Of a stretch of 31,025 nucleotides of DNA, positions 4,457-30,864 are shown piece after piece. The stretch's first letter is position 1; every line of letters begins with the position of its first letter. A model generated the notes under the pieces. The model saw only the letters and a program-made list of their open reading frames with translations. It ran no database searches and was not told the origin of the DNA. The stretch comes from a virus, in the IMG/VR virus record IMGVR_UViG_3300030090_000989, positions 1 through 31,025 of that record; one strand, given 5' to 3'. Made by a program: the position numbers and the translations under genes.

Positions 4457-7405
4457 ATGGGATTAGATTTTTCTACAGTGGCTAGTTCTGCGTTAGGAAC
4501 AGTTGGAACAAATATAAAAGAAGAAGCAAAACGTAAAGCTGGTCTTGAAGATCAACTTTTTTTAAGCTTGTATGGTAAAGTAGAAGATGCTACTGCTGCT
4601 ACAGAACAGCAACTGGTTACTGCAGAACAAGAAATTCGTAATGGAATGGCTATTGGACTGAAAACTGAAAGAGAATTAGAAAGCTGGCTTGCTACATCAC
4701 CGAAGCGAAGACAAAGTTTACTAGAAAATTACGATAGGTATGTTAGTACACACACACTAAAAGAGGGAGAAACAATGCCCTCTGCTATAGATTTGATTAT
4801 GCCGCCTTCGTATAAAAGACCAGAGAATTTTAGTCCAGTTGCAGAAGAAGCTGTTCGTAAAATGGCAGAGAGATATGTAGGTATTTACGATACTTCAACT
4901 ATCTCTCCTGTAGAGGAAAAAACTTTTAGCCAAAATTTTCAAGATAGTTTGAATACTACTTTAGGGTTGCAAAGCCCTAGACAGTCTGCTCTTAAACGAA
5001 TAGCAGACATGACACAGAGGAATGTATCAGAACTTGAAAAAATACTAAGACCATCTAAACGAACTCCTTTTACAGTTACTGGAGGAATGTTGGCCTTTAA
5101 AATGCCAGTTAATATACAGGACCAAATAGCAATCCAAGCTGCTAAACTTGCATTAAAACAAGCACAGGATAAAAATGCAAACATTGAGGATGTAGAGTTT
5201 TATAAAAAGTATTTTCAAAAAAGAAATGCTCAAGGGCAATGGGAAGATGATCCAACAAAACAACATATAAATATTTTTGGATTGAAAGTTGCAAGAGGCA
5301 CTAAACTATCTCAGCTAACGGACCACCTTGCACTGGGAACTACGTTGGCTAGTATTTATGAATCTCTTGGTGTAGATGCACCTACTTCTGCTGATCATCA
5401 GCGTTTTAGAAATGACTATCTGAAACAATGGGGAGAAATTACAGGACAAACTATAAATGATGGTGTGTCGGGAGTTACATTTGCAGATGCTGGAAGTATT
5501 TTAGCTGCTTACGCTCGTACTGGTGCTGCTCTGGATTCTCTTTTATTTGGACAAATTCGTGATCCTAAAAACCCAAATCCTGCTCAAAATAAAATACTTC
5601 AAGGTCACACCGTTGATCAAACAGTAATGTTTGGAATATCTACCTACACTAAATGGGTAGAAATTACTAAGAAAAGGGCTGAGAAGGGCGTAACACCAGA
5701 TACTTCTTTTAAAGCATTTATAAATGTAGCAAAGACAGGAGGACTAGACGCAGTGGAGATAAGAGCAGATATCTTTGGTACAACCACTATTCCTACTGAC
5801 ATGCTTAACAAAATAAAACTATGGGCAGAAGGTGGCACTACACTTAAAGACCAGTTCAATAATAGTTTGCTACCAGAATACGTAGATGGCATGACCTATG
5901 GCGGTTATTTGCAGACACTAAATGATGAGATACAGCGACGGGCCACTGCCCAAAATATTAATATTGACCCACAAACCAATTTCAATAATGCCGTTCTTAT
6001 TATACATCAATTAGACAATGGAGTGTATGGTCGGCCTACACAATCTGGTGGTTATAATGCTGTGACTAGTACGTTTCCCATAAATCCTTCTGCTGGAGCT
6101 AGTGAACCTGAAGTAGCTGCTTCTATAGTTACGGAAGTTAGTACAAACCCAAACACAAATATTCCTGTAACAAAACGTGGAGATGCAGAAGTAGATTTGC
6201 CAGAATGGTCTGCGACAATTATTGATGAAATAAATCAGGAGGCACGAAAGGGAATAGCTAGTGGAAAAGACCCAGACGGAAATTCTGTTGACATTGAAAA
6301 CATGTCTAAATACAACCAACAACTGCATGAACTAGTATGGTATGCTAGTGCTGCAGCAAATAGAAATATAGACGTAGCTGCATTGTATCCTACCGACGAA
6401 GCTACTACAGATGTTATTGCCGCACCCGGTGTGTCTGTACTTAGCCCTGACGAAACAGCTACAGTAACAGAAGAGGATGAATTAGAGAGTGTAGAAGCTA
6501 AAGTAGAAGAAGTGAAACCTTTTGATTCTATGGAATGGGTAAGGGGCAGTATAACTAAAATTGACAGAGATGACTATAATTCTTTTCAATTAAACCCAGA
6601 CGATAAAAAAGTAGTTAGAGCTTTTAGCGAGGGTTACACAAAGAAATGGAAAGATTCTGGTGGCGCTGATGGCCCACTGAAAGAGTATCCTCCGTTTAAG
6701 TTTCTTAAATTTGCAACAGACAATCAGGACTTTAAAGGCACCGTGAATGATTTTTATAATGCCTTTTTATCTGACACACCTGTTGTGCCATACGTTGTGA
6801 CTGAGAAAGGTGGTGGTGAAGAAAAAACCACTGGCTTAATGAGTCCTAAACCTAAACCAATGGAAGTTTTAAATAAGGCAAGAGACGACCTATCTGAACT
6901 TACAACTAGGGACGATATTTTAGCGTATGACATAAAAGGCATTGATAAAAAAGGTAAAGATGCGCTTAGAACCGCTGTAAATGAGCGACTAGCAGAGCTT
7001 GGTTTGAGTAGAGAAGTAGGTACAGAAGGCGAAGGATTTTTCTCAAGAATAGGAAGGGGGGTTAGGGAAGGAGTAGAAAAATTGGGCGAAACAAGTCGTG
7101 GGGCGCAAGAAGAAAAGCTTCAGCTAAAAGAAGATAGCTTTTTTGACAGAATAAGCGGCATCATGGGAATTGATGGTAGAAATACTATTATGGAAGAAAT
7201 TGTTGATAAAGATTTATCTGAAGCAGAAGCGATTAATTTAATAGTAGAAAAATTTGTTGAACCAAATAACAAGCTGTTTCAAATTCCCGGAGAACGAAAA
7301 GGATTTACTGAAACAATACTACCTTATTCTGATAGAGAAAAAGAGCAAGCGTTTATTTCTTTAGGAAAAAGACTATATGATAGTCTAGCAATGGAGACTC
7401 CATAA
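4457..7405 (+). CDS. Large internal virion / ejection-type protein (982 aa)
   Basis: A single 982-codon frame starts at ATG 4457, one base after the preceding stop, with GGAGCAG upstream. The product is predominantly helical and charged, without signal peptide or obvious membrane segments. An acidic stretch (EEDELESVEAKVEEVK) falls around residue 675-690. No enzymatic motif (lysozyme, peptidase or lytic transglycosylase) was found by eye. Size, position and the paired 1156-aa neighbour resemble the internal core or ejection proteins of podoviruses (compare T7 gp15/gp16), which form a DNA conduit across the envelope. This is inference; no homology was tested. Confidence 0.8.
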   Translation: MGLDFSTVASSALGTVGTNIKEEAKRKAGLEDQLFLSLYGKVEDATAATEQQLVTAEQEIRNGMAIGLKTERELESWLATSPKRRQSLLENYDRYVSTHTLKEGETMPSAIDLIMPPSYKRPENFSPVAEEAVRKMAERYVGIYDTSTISPVEEKTFSQNFQDSLNTTLGLQSPRQSALKRIADMTQRNVSELEKILRPSKRTPFTVTGGMLAFKMPVNIQDQIAIQAAKLALKQAQDKNANIEDVEFYKKYFQKRNAQGQWEDDPTKQHINIFGLKVARGTKLSQLTDHLALGTTLASIYESLGVDAPTSADHQRFRNDYLKQWGEITGQTINDGVSGVTFADAGSILAAYARTGAALDSLLFGQIRDPKNPNPAQNKILQGHTVDQTVMFGISTYTKWVEITKKRAEKGVTPDTSFKAFINVAKTGGLDAVEIRADIFGTTTIPTDMLNKIKLWAEGGTTLKDQFNNSLLPEYVDGMTYGGYLQTLNDEIQRRATAQNINIDPQTNFNNAVLIIHQLDNGVYGRPTQSGGYNAVTSTFPINPSAGASEPEVAASIVTEVSTNPNTNIPVTKRGDAEVDLPEWSATIIDEINQEARKGIASGKDPDGNSVDIENMSKYNQQLHELVWYASAAANRNIDVAALYPTDEATTDVIAAPGVSVLSPDETATVTEEDELESVEAKVEEVKPFDSMEWVRGSITKIDRDDYNSFQLNPDDKKVVRAFSEGYTKKWKDSGGADGPLKEYPPFKFLKFATDNQDFKGTVNDFYNAFLSDTPVVPYVVTEKGGGEEKTTGLMSPKPKPMEVLNKARDDLSELTTRDDILAYDIKGIDKKGKDALRTAVNERLAELGLSREVGTEGEGFFSRIGRGVREGVEKLGETSRGAQEEKLQLKEDSFFDRISGIMGIDGRNTIMEEIVDKDLSEAEAINLIVEKFVEPNNKLFQIPGERKGFTETILPYSDREKEQAFISLGKRLYDSLAMETP

Positions 7406-7406
7406 T

Positions 7407-10400
7407 ATGGCTGAACCAAACACCCCGTATTATCTACAAGAAAAACTTACTAGAAGCCAACTTTTAAAAGATTCAAATTTTTTAAATGACGCTGCTGAAT
7501 TTTTGTATGATAGAACAGGTTCTGCATATGATAATCCAGAAGACATAGTAGATGAATTAGCTGAAGTTATACGTTGGGGAAAGGCTAATGAAGTTTCTAT
7601 GGCGAAAACGTATACCTATGCAAAAAAAGCTAATGAAAAACAACGAGACACAATGGGCAAAATGTTTCTTACCTTTGATAAAACAGATGACATTACAGGT
7701 ACAGGAGAATTTCTTAAAGATTATGGTGGAGCAATAGTAGCTTCTCCTGCCACACTTGGTGCTATCGGTTCGGGAGGAATAGGTCTACTTGGAAGAGGCG
7801 CTGTAAGAGGAGGAATGACGAGAGTAGCAAGTTTAATTAATGACCTTACAGTTAAACAGCTTTTGAAAAAGACCACAAGGGGCCAAGCTTTTAGGCAGGG
7901 AGCCGTTAGAGGGGCTGCAATAGAGGGGCCAATCGGTGCTCTTATGGGAGCAGGGGAAGCTGAAACCCGAAAGCTAACGGGAAGAGAAGAATTTCAGGAT
8001 ATTGATACTGGAGAACAAGCAGTCATAGGAGGAACTGTAGGTGCTCTTTTTGGAGGAACTGTAGCTGGAGGAACAAGATTACTACGTCGAAAACAAGAAC
8101 TAAAGGCACAGGCACTATTTGGAGAAGGTCTTGAAGCAACAGGCGAGAGAGCAAAAGAGGCTACAAAAGTTTTTGATGTATACCTTAAAGAAGTAGGTGA
8201 AGCAGGAGAAAGTACAACGAAACTAGTTAAAATTAGAGAGGGTGTAAGAGGCCAGCTTGATCCGCTTAAAGATTCAATGATAGGAACAGACTTAAAAAAA
8301 CAAATTGTTCCTACGCCAGAAGGATTTAAAGCAAGTTTTAGCGATAATGTTCATAGCAACATTATGGATGCAGCCTCTGAGATTTTGCATAAATACGGTA
8401 GGGGGGCTGTAGATTTTACTGAAGATAAGAGAATCACAGAACGAATAATTGATGCACTGGAATATGCTGCGGATGTACAGAAAAAAAATCGTAAACAAGG
8501 AGAAATTGTTGAGAGCAGTGATGCTTTTCAAGCAATAGATAACATACTAGAAAAATATGCTTTAACGAGAGAACAATTTACTTCAATCTTTAGAGCAGAC
8601 ATGTCTGAGTGGGGTAAAACTGGACAGAGAGTAGGACAGTTTGCAAAGGAGAACTTTGAGAGAAGATTAACAAAAGCAACAAACGATTTAACAGCAACTA
8701 GGTTTCTTAACCCAGAAGCACAAAAAAAGTTTGAACAAATTTCTAAATTGGCGGCATCTGGTGAGGTAGCCATATGGACAGGCATTCAGGCAGTAGATAA
8801 ATTTCGCTTGGGCATGATGACAATTCAAACTGCAACTACAATTCGTAACACGGCGAATGCTTCAGTTAGAACGGCTCTGTATGCTCTGGATAATTTTTTC
8901 TATGGTGCAATGACACGTAACCCTAGTAGAATGCAATCTGGATTTACAGCAGCTAAAGAAGTATTTTTAAATAACTCTGAATCAAATTATCTACGCCTTA
9001 TGTTTGCTCAAAACATGCCGGATGAATTTCAAACTTTGTTTAGACAAATGGCTGACATTGAAGCTGATTCCTTGTCTAGTTCAAAGCTCGTTGGTGTTGC
9101 TAGATTTTTAAATAGGGCCAACACTTTCGCAGATAATGCCTTTAAAAGAGCTATCTTTATGTCGGAACTTCAGGCTCGTGTGGGCAGAGATAAACTTTTA
9201 AAGCACATGAAAGAAGGAACCTTTGGAAAGATAGACAGAGATGACATTGCTGGAGCAATGGAAGAAGCACTTCATTTCACATACCAAAAGTCCTTTCCGG
9301 GTTTCAAACCACCGGGAGCAGCAAATAGATTTGAGAGGGGCTTATGGAATGGCATAGCCAACAAGTTTATTGGGGCTTTTAGCACTCCTGCCACCTCTAT
9401 AGCTATACCTTTTCCAAGGTTTGTGGCTAATTCGTTAGAGTTTATGTACAAACATGCTCCACTTATAGGCATAGCCGATCCTGCTTTGTTTTACAGATAT
9501 GCTAAAGCAGCAGGAGGTAAAGGCTTTACCAGAGAGACAAGGGGGGCCATAAGAAAACGTATGGCACAACAGGTTACTGGTTCAGCAATGCTGTTTGGAG
9601 CCATTCAGCTAAGAGCACAGCAAGGCCCAACGGCAAACTGGTGGGAAGTTTATGACGAAGAAACGGGAAAATACAAAAATGCTCTGGCTTTTTACGGACC
9701 ATTTGCACCGTGGATGTTAGTAGCTGACAAAATTGTTAGAACCTACTGGGGAAATAATTTAATAATGAGTGATGATGCAGCCGCCCAATGGAATACAGTA
9801 GAAAAGCAAAGCTTTCAGGAGGGGTTGTTTACTAAAGAAACTGGTAGAGAGTTTCTACAGGCAGCTTTTGGTTCCGCATTTAGAACAGGATTTACTGGTG
9901 AAGTAGTAAAAGAATTTACTAATGCTCTAAAAGCTACAGATGTTTTTGAGGAACAAGGAGACATAAGTAGTCAGGTTCTTGGTGAAAAATACAAAGATGC
10001 CTCAGTTCGCTTGGATGATTGGGCAGCGAGTGCCGCTGGAAATTGGCTGAATACGTTTGCCGTGCCTCTTGGTCAGTTAAGAGATATAATGGCGGCGTAT
10101 GACCCTAAAGAATACTCAGGAATGAAAGAATCAGTAGTTGTAAATCCAGTAGAACTGTTTATTAGAAAATGGCTTCGATCTGCTCCGATAAATAGTAAGG
10201 GCGAATACCAAATTGGCCCATTTAATTTGGGAACTTCAAAAGAAATAGCAGAATCTGGCATATTTAAAGCTATGGGAGGAAAAGGTACACCTGCGGAAGA
10301 TATAGTTACAGCAACTTCGCTCCCCGGCACTAGAAAAGTTCGTGAAGAAGGTATTCTTAGGCAACTAACGGGCATTGGTTCTCCTGCTAAAAAGAATGTA

Positions 10401-10877
10401 TTAGAAAAAGAGATGCAAAGGCACAATTTACTGGCCTACAAAGAATTTCCAAAAATTAAAAATGATCCAGAGCTTACTCGCAGACTAAGATTAGAATACC
10501 AAAAGATGGTAGAGAAAAATATTATTCCGTATATATTAGGAAGGCATAGACAAAAGTATTCAGAACTATCTCCAAAAAAACAAAAACTATATTTACGAAA
10601 ACAAATAAGAACAATAAGAGAAAATTCTCTAAACTTGGTAGAGGCTTCAGTTCGCACTGACTTAAAACGGGACAGATTTGATTCAGCAGAAGAAAAACAA
10701 AGAGTAGAAGATCAGCTTGTACGAATTATGCAAACACGCTTTAGAACAGCAGATGAATTGAAACAGCTAGAGGTTGTACAAAAATTTCAAGATCAAGAAG
10801 GAAGAAAGCCCAATCTTGATAGTCAGAGAGATTTAAGATTGCTTTTGTCTGGCATAAAATTAACAAAGACTGAGTAG
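7407..10877 (+). CDS. Very large internal virion / ejection-type protein with glycine-rich hydrophobic segments (1156 aa)
   Basis: ATG 7407 follows one base after the previous stop. Near the N terminus are three Gly/Ala-rich hydrophobic stretches: about residues 104-130 (GAIVASPATLGAIGSGGIG), about 168-182 (IEGPIGALMGAG) and about 205-225 (AVIGGTVGALFGGTVAGG). They look able to enter a membrane after release from the particle. The rest is long, helical and basic, with aromatic-rich parts (WWEVYDEETGKY) and a Lys/Arg-rich C terminus. No catalytic motif is evident. As the longest gene in the window, next to another giant virion protein, an ejected channel-forming or DNA-translocating protein is the best inference. 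Confidence 0.8.
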   Translation: MAEPNTPYYLQEKLTRSQLLKDSNFLNDAAEFLYDRTGSAYDNPEDIVDELAEVIRWGKANEVSMAKTYTYAKKANEKQRDTMGKMFLTFDKTDDITGTGEFLKDYGGAIVASPATLGAIGSGGIGLLGRGAVRGGMTRVASLINDLTVKQLLKKTTRGQAFRQGAVRGAAIEGPIGALMGAGEAETRKLTGREEFQDIDTGEQAVIGGTVGALFGGTVAGGTRLLRRKQELKAQALFGEGLEATGERAKEATKVFDVYLKEVGEAGESTTKLVKIREGVRGQLDPLKDSMIGTDLKKQIVPTPEGFKASFSDNVHSNIMDAASEILHKYGRGAVDFTEDKRITERIIDALEYAADVQKKNRKQGEIVESSDAFQAIDNILEKYALTREQFTSIFRADMSEWGKTGQRVGQFAKENFERRLTKATNDLTATRFLNPEAQKKFEQISKLAASGEVAIWTGIQAVDKFRLGMMTIQTATTIRNTANASVRTALYALDNFFYGAMTRNPSRMQSGFTAAKEVFLNNSESNYLRLMFAQNMPDEFQTLFRQMADIEADSLSSSKLVGVARFLNRANTFADNAFKRAIFMSELQARVGRDKLLKHMKEGTFGKIDRDDIAGAMEEALHFTYQKSFPGFKPPGAANRFERGLWNGIANKFIGAFSTPATSIAIPFPRFVANSLEFMYKHAPLIGIADPALFYRYAKAAGGKGFTRETRGAIRKRMAQQVTGSAMLFGAIQLRAQQGPTANWWEVYDEETGKYKNALAFYGPFAPWMLVADKIVRTYWGNNLIMSDDAAAQWNTVEKQSFQEGLFTKETGREFLQAAFGSAFRTGFTGEVVKEFTNALKATDVFEEQGDISSQVLGEKYKDASVRLDDWAASAAGNWLNTFAVPLGQLRDIMAAYDPKEYSGMKESVVVNPVELFIRKWLRSAPINSKGEYQIGPFNLGTSKEIAESGIFKAMGGKGTPAEDIVTATSLPGTRKVREEGILRQLTGIGSPAKKNVLEKEMQRHNLLAYKEFPKIKNDPELTRRLRLEYQKMVEKNIIPYILGRHRQKYSELSPKKQKLYLRKQIRTIRENSLNLVEASVRTDLKRDRFDSAEEKQRVEDQLVRIMQTRFRTADELKQLEVVQKFQDQEGRKPNLDSQRDLRLLLSGIKLTKTE

Positions 10878-27033: not shown

Positions 27034-27588
27034 TTAGTCCTCCCTTAAATATGTGTGACCCTTTAGCTTGACGGTAACTGTCATGCTCTTAGCCCACGAT
27101 GGATTGACTTTATCGTGTGCATAGTAATGGGTAGCTCCATCTACTATGTCCTCACCAAACCCTGTATACACAAGAAAGGCAGCTATCACGCTGTCCTCCC
27201 ACCCATCAAGGTTATATACAGCATCACTACGTCCATCACAGTACCACGAGAACTGGCATCTATGCTTTACAGGGTAAAAGACACGATCACCATAGTCCAG
27301 ATCAGGGTATTGTTTTGTTTTCCATGACTCTCGCACTGGACCTTCTGTAATTACTTCACAGACATCCTCTGGATATTTCATGGACGCAACTCTATTCATA
27401 ACCACCTGTGCCGTAGCTATTTTGTCATCAAACGATGCCCCACGAGCCTCATGGTACGAGTTAATAGCCAAACAATATAACTCCTCATGTAAATCAATAG
27501 GGTCACCTGTATGCATAGGGTTTACCACCACTAGACCCATCACTATTTGTGTTAACGCAGTTAAGGCGTTCAAACTAATATCAAGCAT
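27034..27588 (-). CDS. SleB-type cell-wall hydrolase, probable endolysin (184 aa)
   Basis: This protein likely cleaves peptidoglycan at lysis. The catalytic domain begins with SYHEARGASFDDKIATAQVV, with the conserved Glu of E(A/S)RG, continues VMNRVASMKYPEDVCEVI and QFSWYCDG, and ends with THYYAHDKVNPSWAKSM, all typical of the Hydrolase_2 (SleB) family. Residues 1-24 or so (MLDISLNALTALTQIVMGLVV) are hydrophobic and may act as signal or signal-anchor, which would allow export without a holin. The start ATG 27588 has GAGGG upstream and overlaps the 49-aa gene by 8 bases. Confidence 0.88.
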   Translation of the reverse strand: MLDISLNALTALTQIVMGLVVVNPMHTGDPIDLHEELYCLAINSYHEARGASFDDKIATAQVVMNRVASMKYPEDVCEVITEGPVRESWKTKQYPDLDYGDRVFYPVKHRCQFSWYCDGRSDAVYNLDGWEDSVIAAFLVYTGFGEDIVDGATHYYAHDKVNPSWAKSMTVTVKLKGHTYLRED

Positions 27589-29085: not shown

Positions 29086-29103
29086 TTAATACAGTTGTAT
29101 TAA
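29086..29103. promoter_or_regulatory. Palindromic operator-like site, copy 2
   Basis: TTAATACAGTTGTATTAA, 8-bp arms with a GT centre. It includes the TAA stop (29102-29100) of the Cys-rich gene and ends 4 bases before GGAG of the 60-aa gene. Confidence 0.8.
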
Positions 29104-29831
29104 GCGTACTTGGCACCATTGCCATGCGCCACTATAGCGATAGACTTGGCCGCTACAGTAGCACCTGCACACAAACCACAGTTACTACAATTTGTGCGAT
29201 ACCCTGCTTCCTTGCTGGCAGGACAAGATATTTCCTTACCCTTGACTAGTTCATCAAGAGTTTTAATTACACGAAACGTGCGCTGCTTCTTTGCCCACGC
29301 TTGCTCTGCTTCTTGCAGAGTATCAGCCGACACCATCACCATGCTGGCATCGAATGAACTTGTAGGTATATCTTGCTGATGACTGTAGCCAGTATGACCA
29401 CTGGCCTTGGACAACAGACTATCCCACACATAGGCGGGTACAGCAGCAGGGTCACCGTATGAACCTAGCCGCACCATTCTACCCTCACCAAGCGCAGCGA
29501 TAGCGTTATGCCCCTTGGCATGGTCATAGATGCCTCTATGGTAACTTTTCCAGACATTCAACGGTGCCTGATAGATCGTGACATAGCACGTTCTGTACTT
29601 GGCAAGAGGTTTGTCTGGATCATCATGCGCTACACCACGATGGCGACAGTTACCGCATATGCTGAAGTCAGCACCTGTCTTGTTGGCTACCCGTGGATCA
29701 TGGTCTCGCATTATTATCCACGTTTGTATCATGTCGCCTGTTTTGTCATTGCTGGATGACTTTTTGTAGCCTGTAGCCACCACAACGATTGGTTCACCAT
29801 CCAACAGGGATGGACCATCATAGATAATCAT
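29100..29831 (-). CDS. Cysteine-rich phage protein, possible metal-cluster enzyme (243 aa)
   Basis: I start at ATG 29831 (MIIYDGPSLLDGEPIV), with GAGGA seven bases upstream, rather than ATG 29870, which overlaps the previous gene. Cysteines fall in two groups: C59, C62 (CGNC) and C82 (RTCYVTIYQAP), then C203 (SCPAS), C215, C218 and C221 (CSNCGLC). The middle has RLGSYGDPAAVPAYVWDSLL and TGYSHQ. The layout recalls phage proteins with CYA-type motifs and an FRxxxSGD-like block (DUF7227-like), possibly related to radical-SAM folds. That relationship is uncertain. Zinc or an iron-sulfur cluster is likely. Confidence 0.75.
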   Translation of the reverse strand: MIIYDGPSLLDGEPIVVVATGYKKSSSNDKTGDMIQTWIIMRDHDPRVANKTGADFSICGNCRHRGVAHDDPDKPLAKYRTCYVTIYQAPLNVWKSYHRGIYDHAKGHNAIAALGEGRMVRLGSYGDPAAVPAYVWDSLLSKASGHTGYSHQQDIPTSSFDASMVMVSADTLQEAEQAWAKKQRTFRVIKTLDELVKGKEISCPASKEAGYRTNCSNCGLCAGATVAAKSIAIVAHGNGAKYA

Positions 29832-29841
29832 GACTTGTTCC

Positions 29842-30204
29842 TCAATTCCTTGTCCATTTTCTAGCTTCATCCAAATACAATGGCAACGAGTCTACGTCTA
29901 CATATTGTATAACATCCACATCTAATGGTTGACAATCCTTTCCCCACGGAAGAAATTCATCCCAGACTTCGCTAGTGCGCCACACCATAACTGGATCAGT
30001 GTTTGTGTCAAAGCAAGCAATCTCTACTTGTTCTGGTAACCCATCGGCCCTCCGCTGTTCCCCTATCCAAATTATAGATACTGTCAAACCATTTGACTTA
30101 ATGTCAAATCCATACCGACCTCGACTCCAGTTGTGTCGAATTTTTAGATTGACATGGCGACGAGTGCGCTCCTTGCTACCGTCGATGTTCCACCGCTTGG
30201 TCAT
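29842..30204 (-). CDS. Hypothetical protein (120 aa)
   Basis: ATG 30204 (MTKRWNIDGSKERTRRHVNL) has GGAG 8 bases upstream; the GTG/ATG five codons earlier is less likely. The N terminus is basic, followed by likely beta strands (RYGFDIKSNGLTVSIIWIGE, VEIACFDTNTDPVMVW) and a helical acidic end. The family is unknown. It is part of the first early operon. Confidence 0.75.
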   Translation of the reverse strand: MTKRWNIDGSKERTRRHVNLKIRHNWSRGRYGFDIKSNGLTVSIIWIGEQRRADGLPEQVEIACFDTNTDPVMVWRTSEVWDEFLPWGKDCQPLDVDVIQYVDVDSLPLYLDEARKWTRN

Positions 30205-30835: not shown

Positions 30836-30864
30836 ATATTAGCACAGGTAAAACCTTATGTCAA
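30836..30864 (-). promoter_or_regulatory. Early leftward promoter
   Basis: On the - strand TTGACA (30864-30859), a 17-bp spacer and TAATAT (30841-30836), with TGC before the -10 as an extended -10 element. It would start the long early operon that begins with the 65-aa gene. Confidence 0.75.

Follow-up and report, generated by a model that had tools for sequence, protein, structure and literature searches.

Gene assignment and surroundings

The locus considered here raises the question of what kind of protein is encoded by a cysteine-rich viral gene, and whether its two groups of cysteines belong to an enzyme resembling radical-SAM proteins, as a sequence-only reading had suspected. The window, i.e. 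the whole stretch of DNA that was analysed, is a virus record of 31,025 bases which may be a fragment, so that further genes could exist past its end. The earlier reading had given no strand for the gene. The plus-strand frame across the interval 29100-29831 is interrupted by several stops; the gene lies on the minus strand (Table 1), on which an alternative start at 29870 would allow a longer open frame.

The left part of the window consists of rightward genes, one with a Peptidase_S74 domain, and the right part of a leftward block including genes for ribonucleotide reductase, DNA polymerase A, a DnaB-type helicase and primase, as well as a Cas4-type exonuclease, an integrase and a DNA-binding protein. 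The cysteine-rich gene lies close to the promoter-proximal end of this block. Scanning the window for promoters yielded 9 promoter-like sites versus 4.6 in shuffled sequences (sd 2.0), and the sigma-70-like site upstream of the gene is therefore weak and listed as a candidate only. Position and promoter-like site together indicate that this is probably an early gene.

A gene for a cell-wall hydrolase (27034-27588, minus strand; Hydrolase_2, E 9e-16) is found in the leftward block, adjoining small genes and set apart from the rightward genes. On the plus strand, two adjacent genes (4457-7405 and 7407-10877) encode very long proteins of 982 and 1156 residues; at E 0.001, neither matches anything in Pfam or PHROG.

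Table 1. Coordinates of the cysteine-rich gene, its signals and its conserved elements in the window.
Feature	Position	Strand	Remarks
CDS of PHROG 2554 family	29100..29831	minus	243 aa; ATG at 29831, stop at 29100-29102
GAGG, likely ribosome-binding site	29840-29843	minus	8 nt 5' of ATG
Candidate early promoter, sigma-70-like TTGACA-17-TAATAT with TG	30836..30864	minus	about 1 kb upstream; consensus match only
N28-x-K30-T31 signature, then Q36	29739..29750	minus	102/102 homologues; form like DUF7227 NxKTG and GP88 NxKT
Cysteine site 1, C59-x2-C62-x19-C82-Y83	29586..29657	minus	putative cluster-binding site; invariant in 102/102
Y125-G126-D127-P128, at strand end	29448..29459	minus	proposed counterpart of radical-SAM GGEP motif
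H151, within Y-[ST]-H	29379..29381	minus	invariant histidine, 102/102
Cysteine site 2, C203-x11-C215-x2-C218-x2-C221	29169..29225	minus	putative second iron-sulfur or zinc site
H236, close to C-terminus	29124..29126	minus	invariant histidine, 102/102

Distribution and conservation of the family

The protein matches the profile of PHROG 2554 (E 5.3e-74, residues 1-241), as do all 90 of the 90 members of the family alignment in which it is included. PHROG 2554 is a widespread phage family, already catalogued without function. Its profile has 529 positions, of which the window protein covers only 287-517; among 117 loci, the additional N-terminal part was not encountered in any member, upstream open frames spanning at most 172 residues. 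Homologues are present in 148 of 50,697 phage records, and in 147 of these 148 the match spans 80% of the protein or more. A scan of IMG/VR gave at least 585 related stretches among the matches listed, of which the best 80 were used, and at least four loci (a lower bound) were obtained by scanning bacterial and archaeal genomes of 84,980 species with two short patterns; virus records contain sequences 100% identical to two of these four.

Conservation was counted in 102 full-length, non-redundant homologues (<85% identity, window protein included), after 21 partial matches had been dropped (7 of 117 loci and 14 of 73 loci). The seven cysteines of the window protein, at residues 59, 62, 82, 203, 215, 218 and 221, are exactly those named from the sequence at the outset, with no further cysteine in the protein, and the variation among homologues that would have spoken against the sequence-only reading is absent: all seven, together with H151 and H236, are kept in 102/102 homologues, so that the pattern is not due to chance. 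Spacing is fixed in part only. The C59-C62 gap is always 2 residues and the C62-C82 gap ranges from 5 to 24; in site 2 the C203-C215 gap varies from 7 to 13, and those of C215-C218 and C218-C221 are always 2. Invariant as well are G6, S8, N28, K30, T31, Q36, G60, Y83, R121, G126, Y149 and S168, with D127 kept in 101 of 102, and the suspicion of a conserved middle between the two cysteine groups is borne out by R121, G126, D127, Y149, H151 and S168. Taken as a set, the invariant residues other than cysteine look like those of an active site.

The gene is under purifying selection. Its nearest relative (L001), 81% identical, differs from it at 34 first, 25 second and 107 third codon positions (dN 0.12, dS 1.36; dN/dS about 0.09).

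Relationship to DUF7227, GP88 and DUF5131

Comparison with DUF7227 (PF23872), also proposed from the sequence, proved the right lead at superfamily level, though the HMMER match of the window protein (0.00043, 20.4 bits) is below the Pfam cut-off of 27 bits. With E values no higher than 1, DUF7227 is matched by 72 of the 90 aligned members, the best at 2.6e-7, and profile-profile alignment with hhalign gave P 4.2e-16 over 189 columns, or 1.4e-15 with a second alignment (hhalign 98.6-98.7%), with none of 30 column-shuffled controls equally high. On these sequence comparisons, homology of the two families across the whole domain, cysteines included, is firm. Both share the cysteine sites, NxKTG, GD, TH and a C-terminal HG. 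They differ in site 1, which is CX3CX5-6C[YF] in 13 of 14 DUF7227 sequences and CX2CX6C in the remaining one as against CX2CX19CY in the window protein, and in about 20 extra N-terminal residues and an insert before C59 in the window family.

A chain of profile matches leads from DUF7227 through GP88 and DUF5131 to a radical-SAM family. Its first link is a protein of cyanophage DSL-LC03 (locus L216), which at the same place scores 295 bits with DUF7227, 177 bits with PHROG 2554 and 31.4 bits with GP88 (PF17338; cut-off 24.4 bits). Two other DUF7227 records tested alongside showed no GP88 match, nor did the window protein at E up to 1, nor any of the 13 phage records with PHROG 2554 proper. The second link emerged when the GP88 model was run over 296 genomes of the phylum to which the genome of a Mycobacterium record (G003) belongs: 16 matched, 13 of them above the cut-off, and 13 of the 14 loci made from the matched genomes have the DUF5131 type of motif. 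Two DUF5131 (PF07505) proteins score above the cut-off for GP88 (28.4 and 27.3 bits) and match DUF5131 itself at 1e-104 and 2e-41. As the last link, one of these two DUF5131 proteins matches TIGR04471 (radical SAM mobile pair protein A) in NCBIfam at E 4.8e-26, with a score of 91.6 that is far under the cut-off of 355.

When profiles are aligned by hhalign, the connections in this chain come out weaker. GP88 against DUF5131 gave P 0.012 (0/30 shuffles as high), GP88 against DUF7227 gave P 0.014 (0/30) and 0.043 in the other direction, and DUF7227 against DUF5131 gave P 0.0036 (0/30) or 0.089 (6/30), depending on direction. For PHROG 2554 itself, the alignments with GP88 are short and unconvincing (P 0.03 to 0.11, 1/30 shuffles as high) and those with DUF5131 not significant (P 0.12 and 0.25, 3 and 9 of 30 shuffles). 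GP88 proteins, examples of which are Peaches gp85, Turbido gp94 and Kampy gene 87, resemble the window family in NxKT, a three-cysteine site and RLN-x-x-SD; unlike the window family, their site 1 is CX6CX3C (44 of 45 sequences), and the invariant columns of GP88 do not include the C-terminal cysteines. The three-cysteine site of DUF5131 is CX6CX2C[YF] in 40 of 42 sequences. Each of 20 phage records, picked for holding one match, has a single place matching PHROG 2554, DUF7227 or GP88 and no second copy.

Searches of openly licensed papers found none on DUF7227 or on DUF5131, and those for gp88, for non-canonical radical-SAM motifs and for phage radical-SAM proteins returned nothing recognised as dealing with the PHROG 2554 family. 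In one such paper (PMC8066314), gp88 and the radical-SAM proteins are different proteins, the former being concanavalin A-like. A unification of PHROG 2554, DUF7227, GP88 and DUF5131, or a radical-SAM lead with stretchable cysteine spacing, was likewise not found in print among openly licensed papers.

Predicted fold

An AlphaFold2 model of the window protein, built with 90 sequences, has a pLDDT of 97.1 and a pTM of 0.92 and shows one alpha/beta domain, in which the strand 119-125 leads into Y125-G126-D127-P128. Where a plain zinc ribbon would have undone the suspicion of an enzyme, structure prediction thus gives a large single alpha/beta domain instead. That the protein is nothing more than a zinc ribbon, or a remnant without function, is very improbable: the cysteines themselves would suit such a protein, and in Pseudomonas phage LUZ100 only the first 49 residues find a match, so that loss may happen in some phages, but 243 residues in a single confident domain, a dN/dS of about 0.09 and coverage of 80% or more in 147 of 148 phage records all speak against it.

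When 989 Foldseek candidates for the window model were re-examined with VIA-align, rows 1-9 of the ranking were all radical-SAM proteins, with Z from 3.9 down to 2.9 and an rmsd of 4.2-5.5 A across 129-151 aligned residues. These nine entries represent five enzymes, namely PFL-activating enzyme, QueE, TYW1, a viperin-like enzyme and lysine aminomutase. Row 10, of a non-radical-SAM fold, is tied with the rows above at Z 2.8, and families absent from the VIA-align lists may also fit. For a Peaches-type GP88 model (pLDDT 88.4), radical-SAM proteins fill rows 1-10 and 15 of the first 16 rows, with a best Z of 5.5 (4.9 A, 169 residues); rows 1-10 comprise four enzymes, spore photoproduct lyase accounting for six of them, and row 11, tied with the rows above, is tryptophan-synthase-like at Z 4.3. 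These Z values may reflect no more than a TIM-like arrangement held in common. A low Z alone is no proof of kinship, and weight is given to the rankings because two models agree.

Foldseek against solved structures returned nothing useful, the best E being 1.1 for the window model and 0.25 for the GP88 model. Among viral models it recovered DUF7227 proteins at E 1.6e-6 and 1.5e-4, GP88 proteins at E 0.03-0.05 and weaker, and a radical-SAM protein only at E 0.43. Sequence searches of solved structures with the window family, DUF7227 and GP88 gave unrelated matches at chance level (E >=0.033).

The same fold could serve a protein that performs no radical chemistry. Pairs of the form CxxC and runs of the form CxxCxxC are common zinc ligands, and many early phage proteins work by binding, so one may imagine a zinc protein, its alpha/beta scaffold either plain or derived from radical-SAM enzymes, that binds a host protein or nucleic acid, with site 1 (three cysteines, perhaps with a histidine) and site 2 (four cysteines) both holding structural zinc. 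The invariant H151 and H236 could complete a site of this kind, and the variable spacing of site 1, from 5 to 24 residues, would suit it; matches to Pfam zinc fingers are at chance level (the window protein with Znf_XAF1_N at E 0.96, and 3 of 17 relatives with zf-B_box, best E 0.46). The invariant residues that are not metal ligands, N28, K30, T31, Q36, R121, G126, Y149 and S168, suit an enzyme pocket, and radical-SAM folds top both structural rankings. We regard this explanation as rather unlikely, if well worth keeping in sight.

Radical-SAM motifs and profiles

The canonical motif CX3CX2C occurs in 0/102 sequences of PHROG 2554, 0/14 of DUF7227, 0/45 of GP88 and 0/42 of DUF5131, and the window protein matches neither Pfam Radical_SAM at E up to 1 nor any NCBIfam model. 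For profile comparison, a reference set of 30 loci was drawn from 68 Pfam Radical_SAM matches in four genomes, using the stretch around CX3CX2C. DUF7227 aligns to this set with P 0.00031 (0/30 column shuffles as high), its C..C..CY falling over CX3CX2C and its AGDLP over GGEP; with the cysteines masked, the signal weakened to P 0.009-0.011 over 25-28 columns, the region up to GGEP being left. The corresponding values are P 0.0085 for DUF5131 (0/30 shuffles as high) and P 0.15 for GP88 (2/30). The window family gave P 0.063, which is not significant (score 18.6 versus 18.1 for the best of 30 shuffles), and a merged profile of PHROG 2554 and DUF7227 gave P 0.22. A possible equivalence of YGDP with GGEP would run via the AGDLP of DUF7227; the merged profile aligns otherwise.

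Radical-SAM enzymes with other spacings have been described, such as QueE (CX14CX2C), HmdB (CX5CX2C) and PhnJ (CX2CX21CX5C), and from these examples, as given in PMC4389238, radical-SAM chemistry is possible without CX3CX2C. The CX2CX21C of PhnJ is nearest in form to the CX2CX19C of the window protein, a likeness of form only; its motif is near the PhnJ C-terminus according to the same source, unlike site 1 here. The radical-SAM resemblance suspected at the outset is therefore sustained in part: the structural rankings of two models, the match of DUF5131 to TIGR04471 and the homology with DUF7227 argue for it, and the missing CX3CX2C, the lack of a Pfam Radical_SAM match and the direct profile P of 0.063 argue against. 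As the defining CX3CX2C motif is absent, classifying the protein among canonical radical-SAM enzymes is not warranted, and the claim made here is that it works like one.

An iron-sulfur or zinc enzyme of other chemistry, for instance one modifying nucleotides or nucleic acids, with a barrel that is like those of radical-SAM enzymes only in a general way, would be in keeping with the low Z values, with the ordinary TIM barrels close behind in both lists, and with conserved Arg, Asp and His residues that fit many activities. Radical-SAM proteins nonetheless come first in both lists, and the cysteines and GD of DUF7227 align with the positions of the radical-SAM motifs, which makes such an enzyme improbable in our view.

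Genomic position and exchange at one locus

In T7-like phages (Autographiviridae in the records), the PHROG 2554 gene is in the early region as judged by position. It precedes integrase and RNA polymerase in Caulobacter phage S2B, where it is near the terminal repeat; in Synechococcus phage S-SRP01 these two are preceded by the DUF7227 gene. Two further T7-like phages, Roseobacter phage CRP-118 and a phage deposited as Mycobacterium phage jiawei, have the gene near one genome end. In Odin and Piro94 it is among the first genes counted from the right end. In large phages such as KpS8, Ma-LMM01 and RcXuper it is found elsewhere, and an early position was not seen.

Turbido and Piro94, both of the genus Turbidovirus, are 83% identical over 875 bases before and 79% identical over 1,233 bases after a segment which in Turbido holds GP88 (gp94) and gp93, and in Piro94 the PHROG 2554 gene and three small genes. 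No similarity between the two inserts was detected by blastn at E 1e-5. GP88 and PHROG 2554 hence occupy the same locus in near relatives, as observed in this one phage pair. At 5 min, expression in Kampy is for the most part restricted to genes 82-88, which include its GP88 gene, gene 87; among the early Kampy proteins detected by mass spectrometry, gene 86 is named and gene 87 is not in the accessible part of the same report (PMC4626039), so that strong expression of the protein, as the sequence-only reading had assumed for the window gene, is not supported by what that part contains.

No partner gene is generally conserved within 4 kb of the 102 loci. The commonest neighbour cluster, found at 15 of 102 loci and mostly on the opposite strand, resembles the large terminase on a reading of its sequence, and a fixed two-gene system is thus not supported. 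In the accessible part of a toxicity screen (PMC7474061), none of the few phage names looked for is present.

Several relatives of unusual form were met with in the course of this survey. LUZ100 gp04 (726-989 of locus L117) is a short early-region protein matching residues 1-49 of the window protein with 49% identity, and may, from its sequence, be a remnant or a small derived protein. Gp84 of a Tunturiibacter phage (2707-3399 of locus L116) is annotated as a DNA methyltransferase and has a weak family match (E 0.3); two Tunturiibacter phage records also match the DUF7227 query, and the methyltransferase annotation may be wrong. A DUF7227-type gene (1282-2004 of locus L196), in the same Verrucomicrobiota assembly as locus L107, seems rearranged when inspected by eye: the piece from CYA to GD sits after the C-terminal HG and not in the middle, which looks like a natural circular permutation or a segment move.

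Proposed function and implications

The best explanation, to which we give a probability of about one half, is that the window protein is a divergent, stand-alone radical-SAM-like phage enzyme with a CX2C-X(5-24)-C site and a second site of four cysteines, used early in infection. It would adopt a partial alpha/beta barrel of the radical-SAM type whose [4Fe-4S] cluster is bound by C59, C62 and C82, unusually spaced as CX2C-X5-24-C. Y125-G126-D127-P128 would replace the GGE motif, the G126-D127 turn helping to hold SAM. Cleavage of SAM by the cluster would yield a 5'-deoxyadenosyl radical, by which one target is altered. The cysteines C203, C215, C218 and C221 would bind either another cluster or a zinc ion with a structural role. 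The target would be encountered as infection begins and might be a nucleic acid, a host factor or a component of defence. An early target is proposed because the gene lies in the early region of T7-like phages and of several mycobacteriophage relatives, and also because there is no general partner gene and GP88 is found at the same place in a near relative.

Early phage genes are frequently tools of host takeover, and many are without known function. It is tempting to speculate that PHROG 2554, DUF7227 and GP88 together form one hidden branch of radical-SAM proteins, serving as an anti-host or anti-defence enzyme of diverse tailed phages whose hosts include Mycobacterium, Gordonia, Roseobacter, Caulobacter, Klebsiella, Pseudomonas and cyanobacteria. 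As a whole, this broader proposal is tentative, and the odds are somewhat against it; it would entail that in several of these phages the enzyme is used at the very start of infection, and that the branch has a stretchable cluster loop in PHROG 2554 and a four-cysteine second site in PHROG 2554 and DUF7227. If the protein is a radical-SAM-like enzyme, the function of the family would be open to direct biochemical testing, and the two phages of one genus that carry either PHROG 2554 or GP88 at one locus would provide a test system in Mycobacterium smegmatis.
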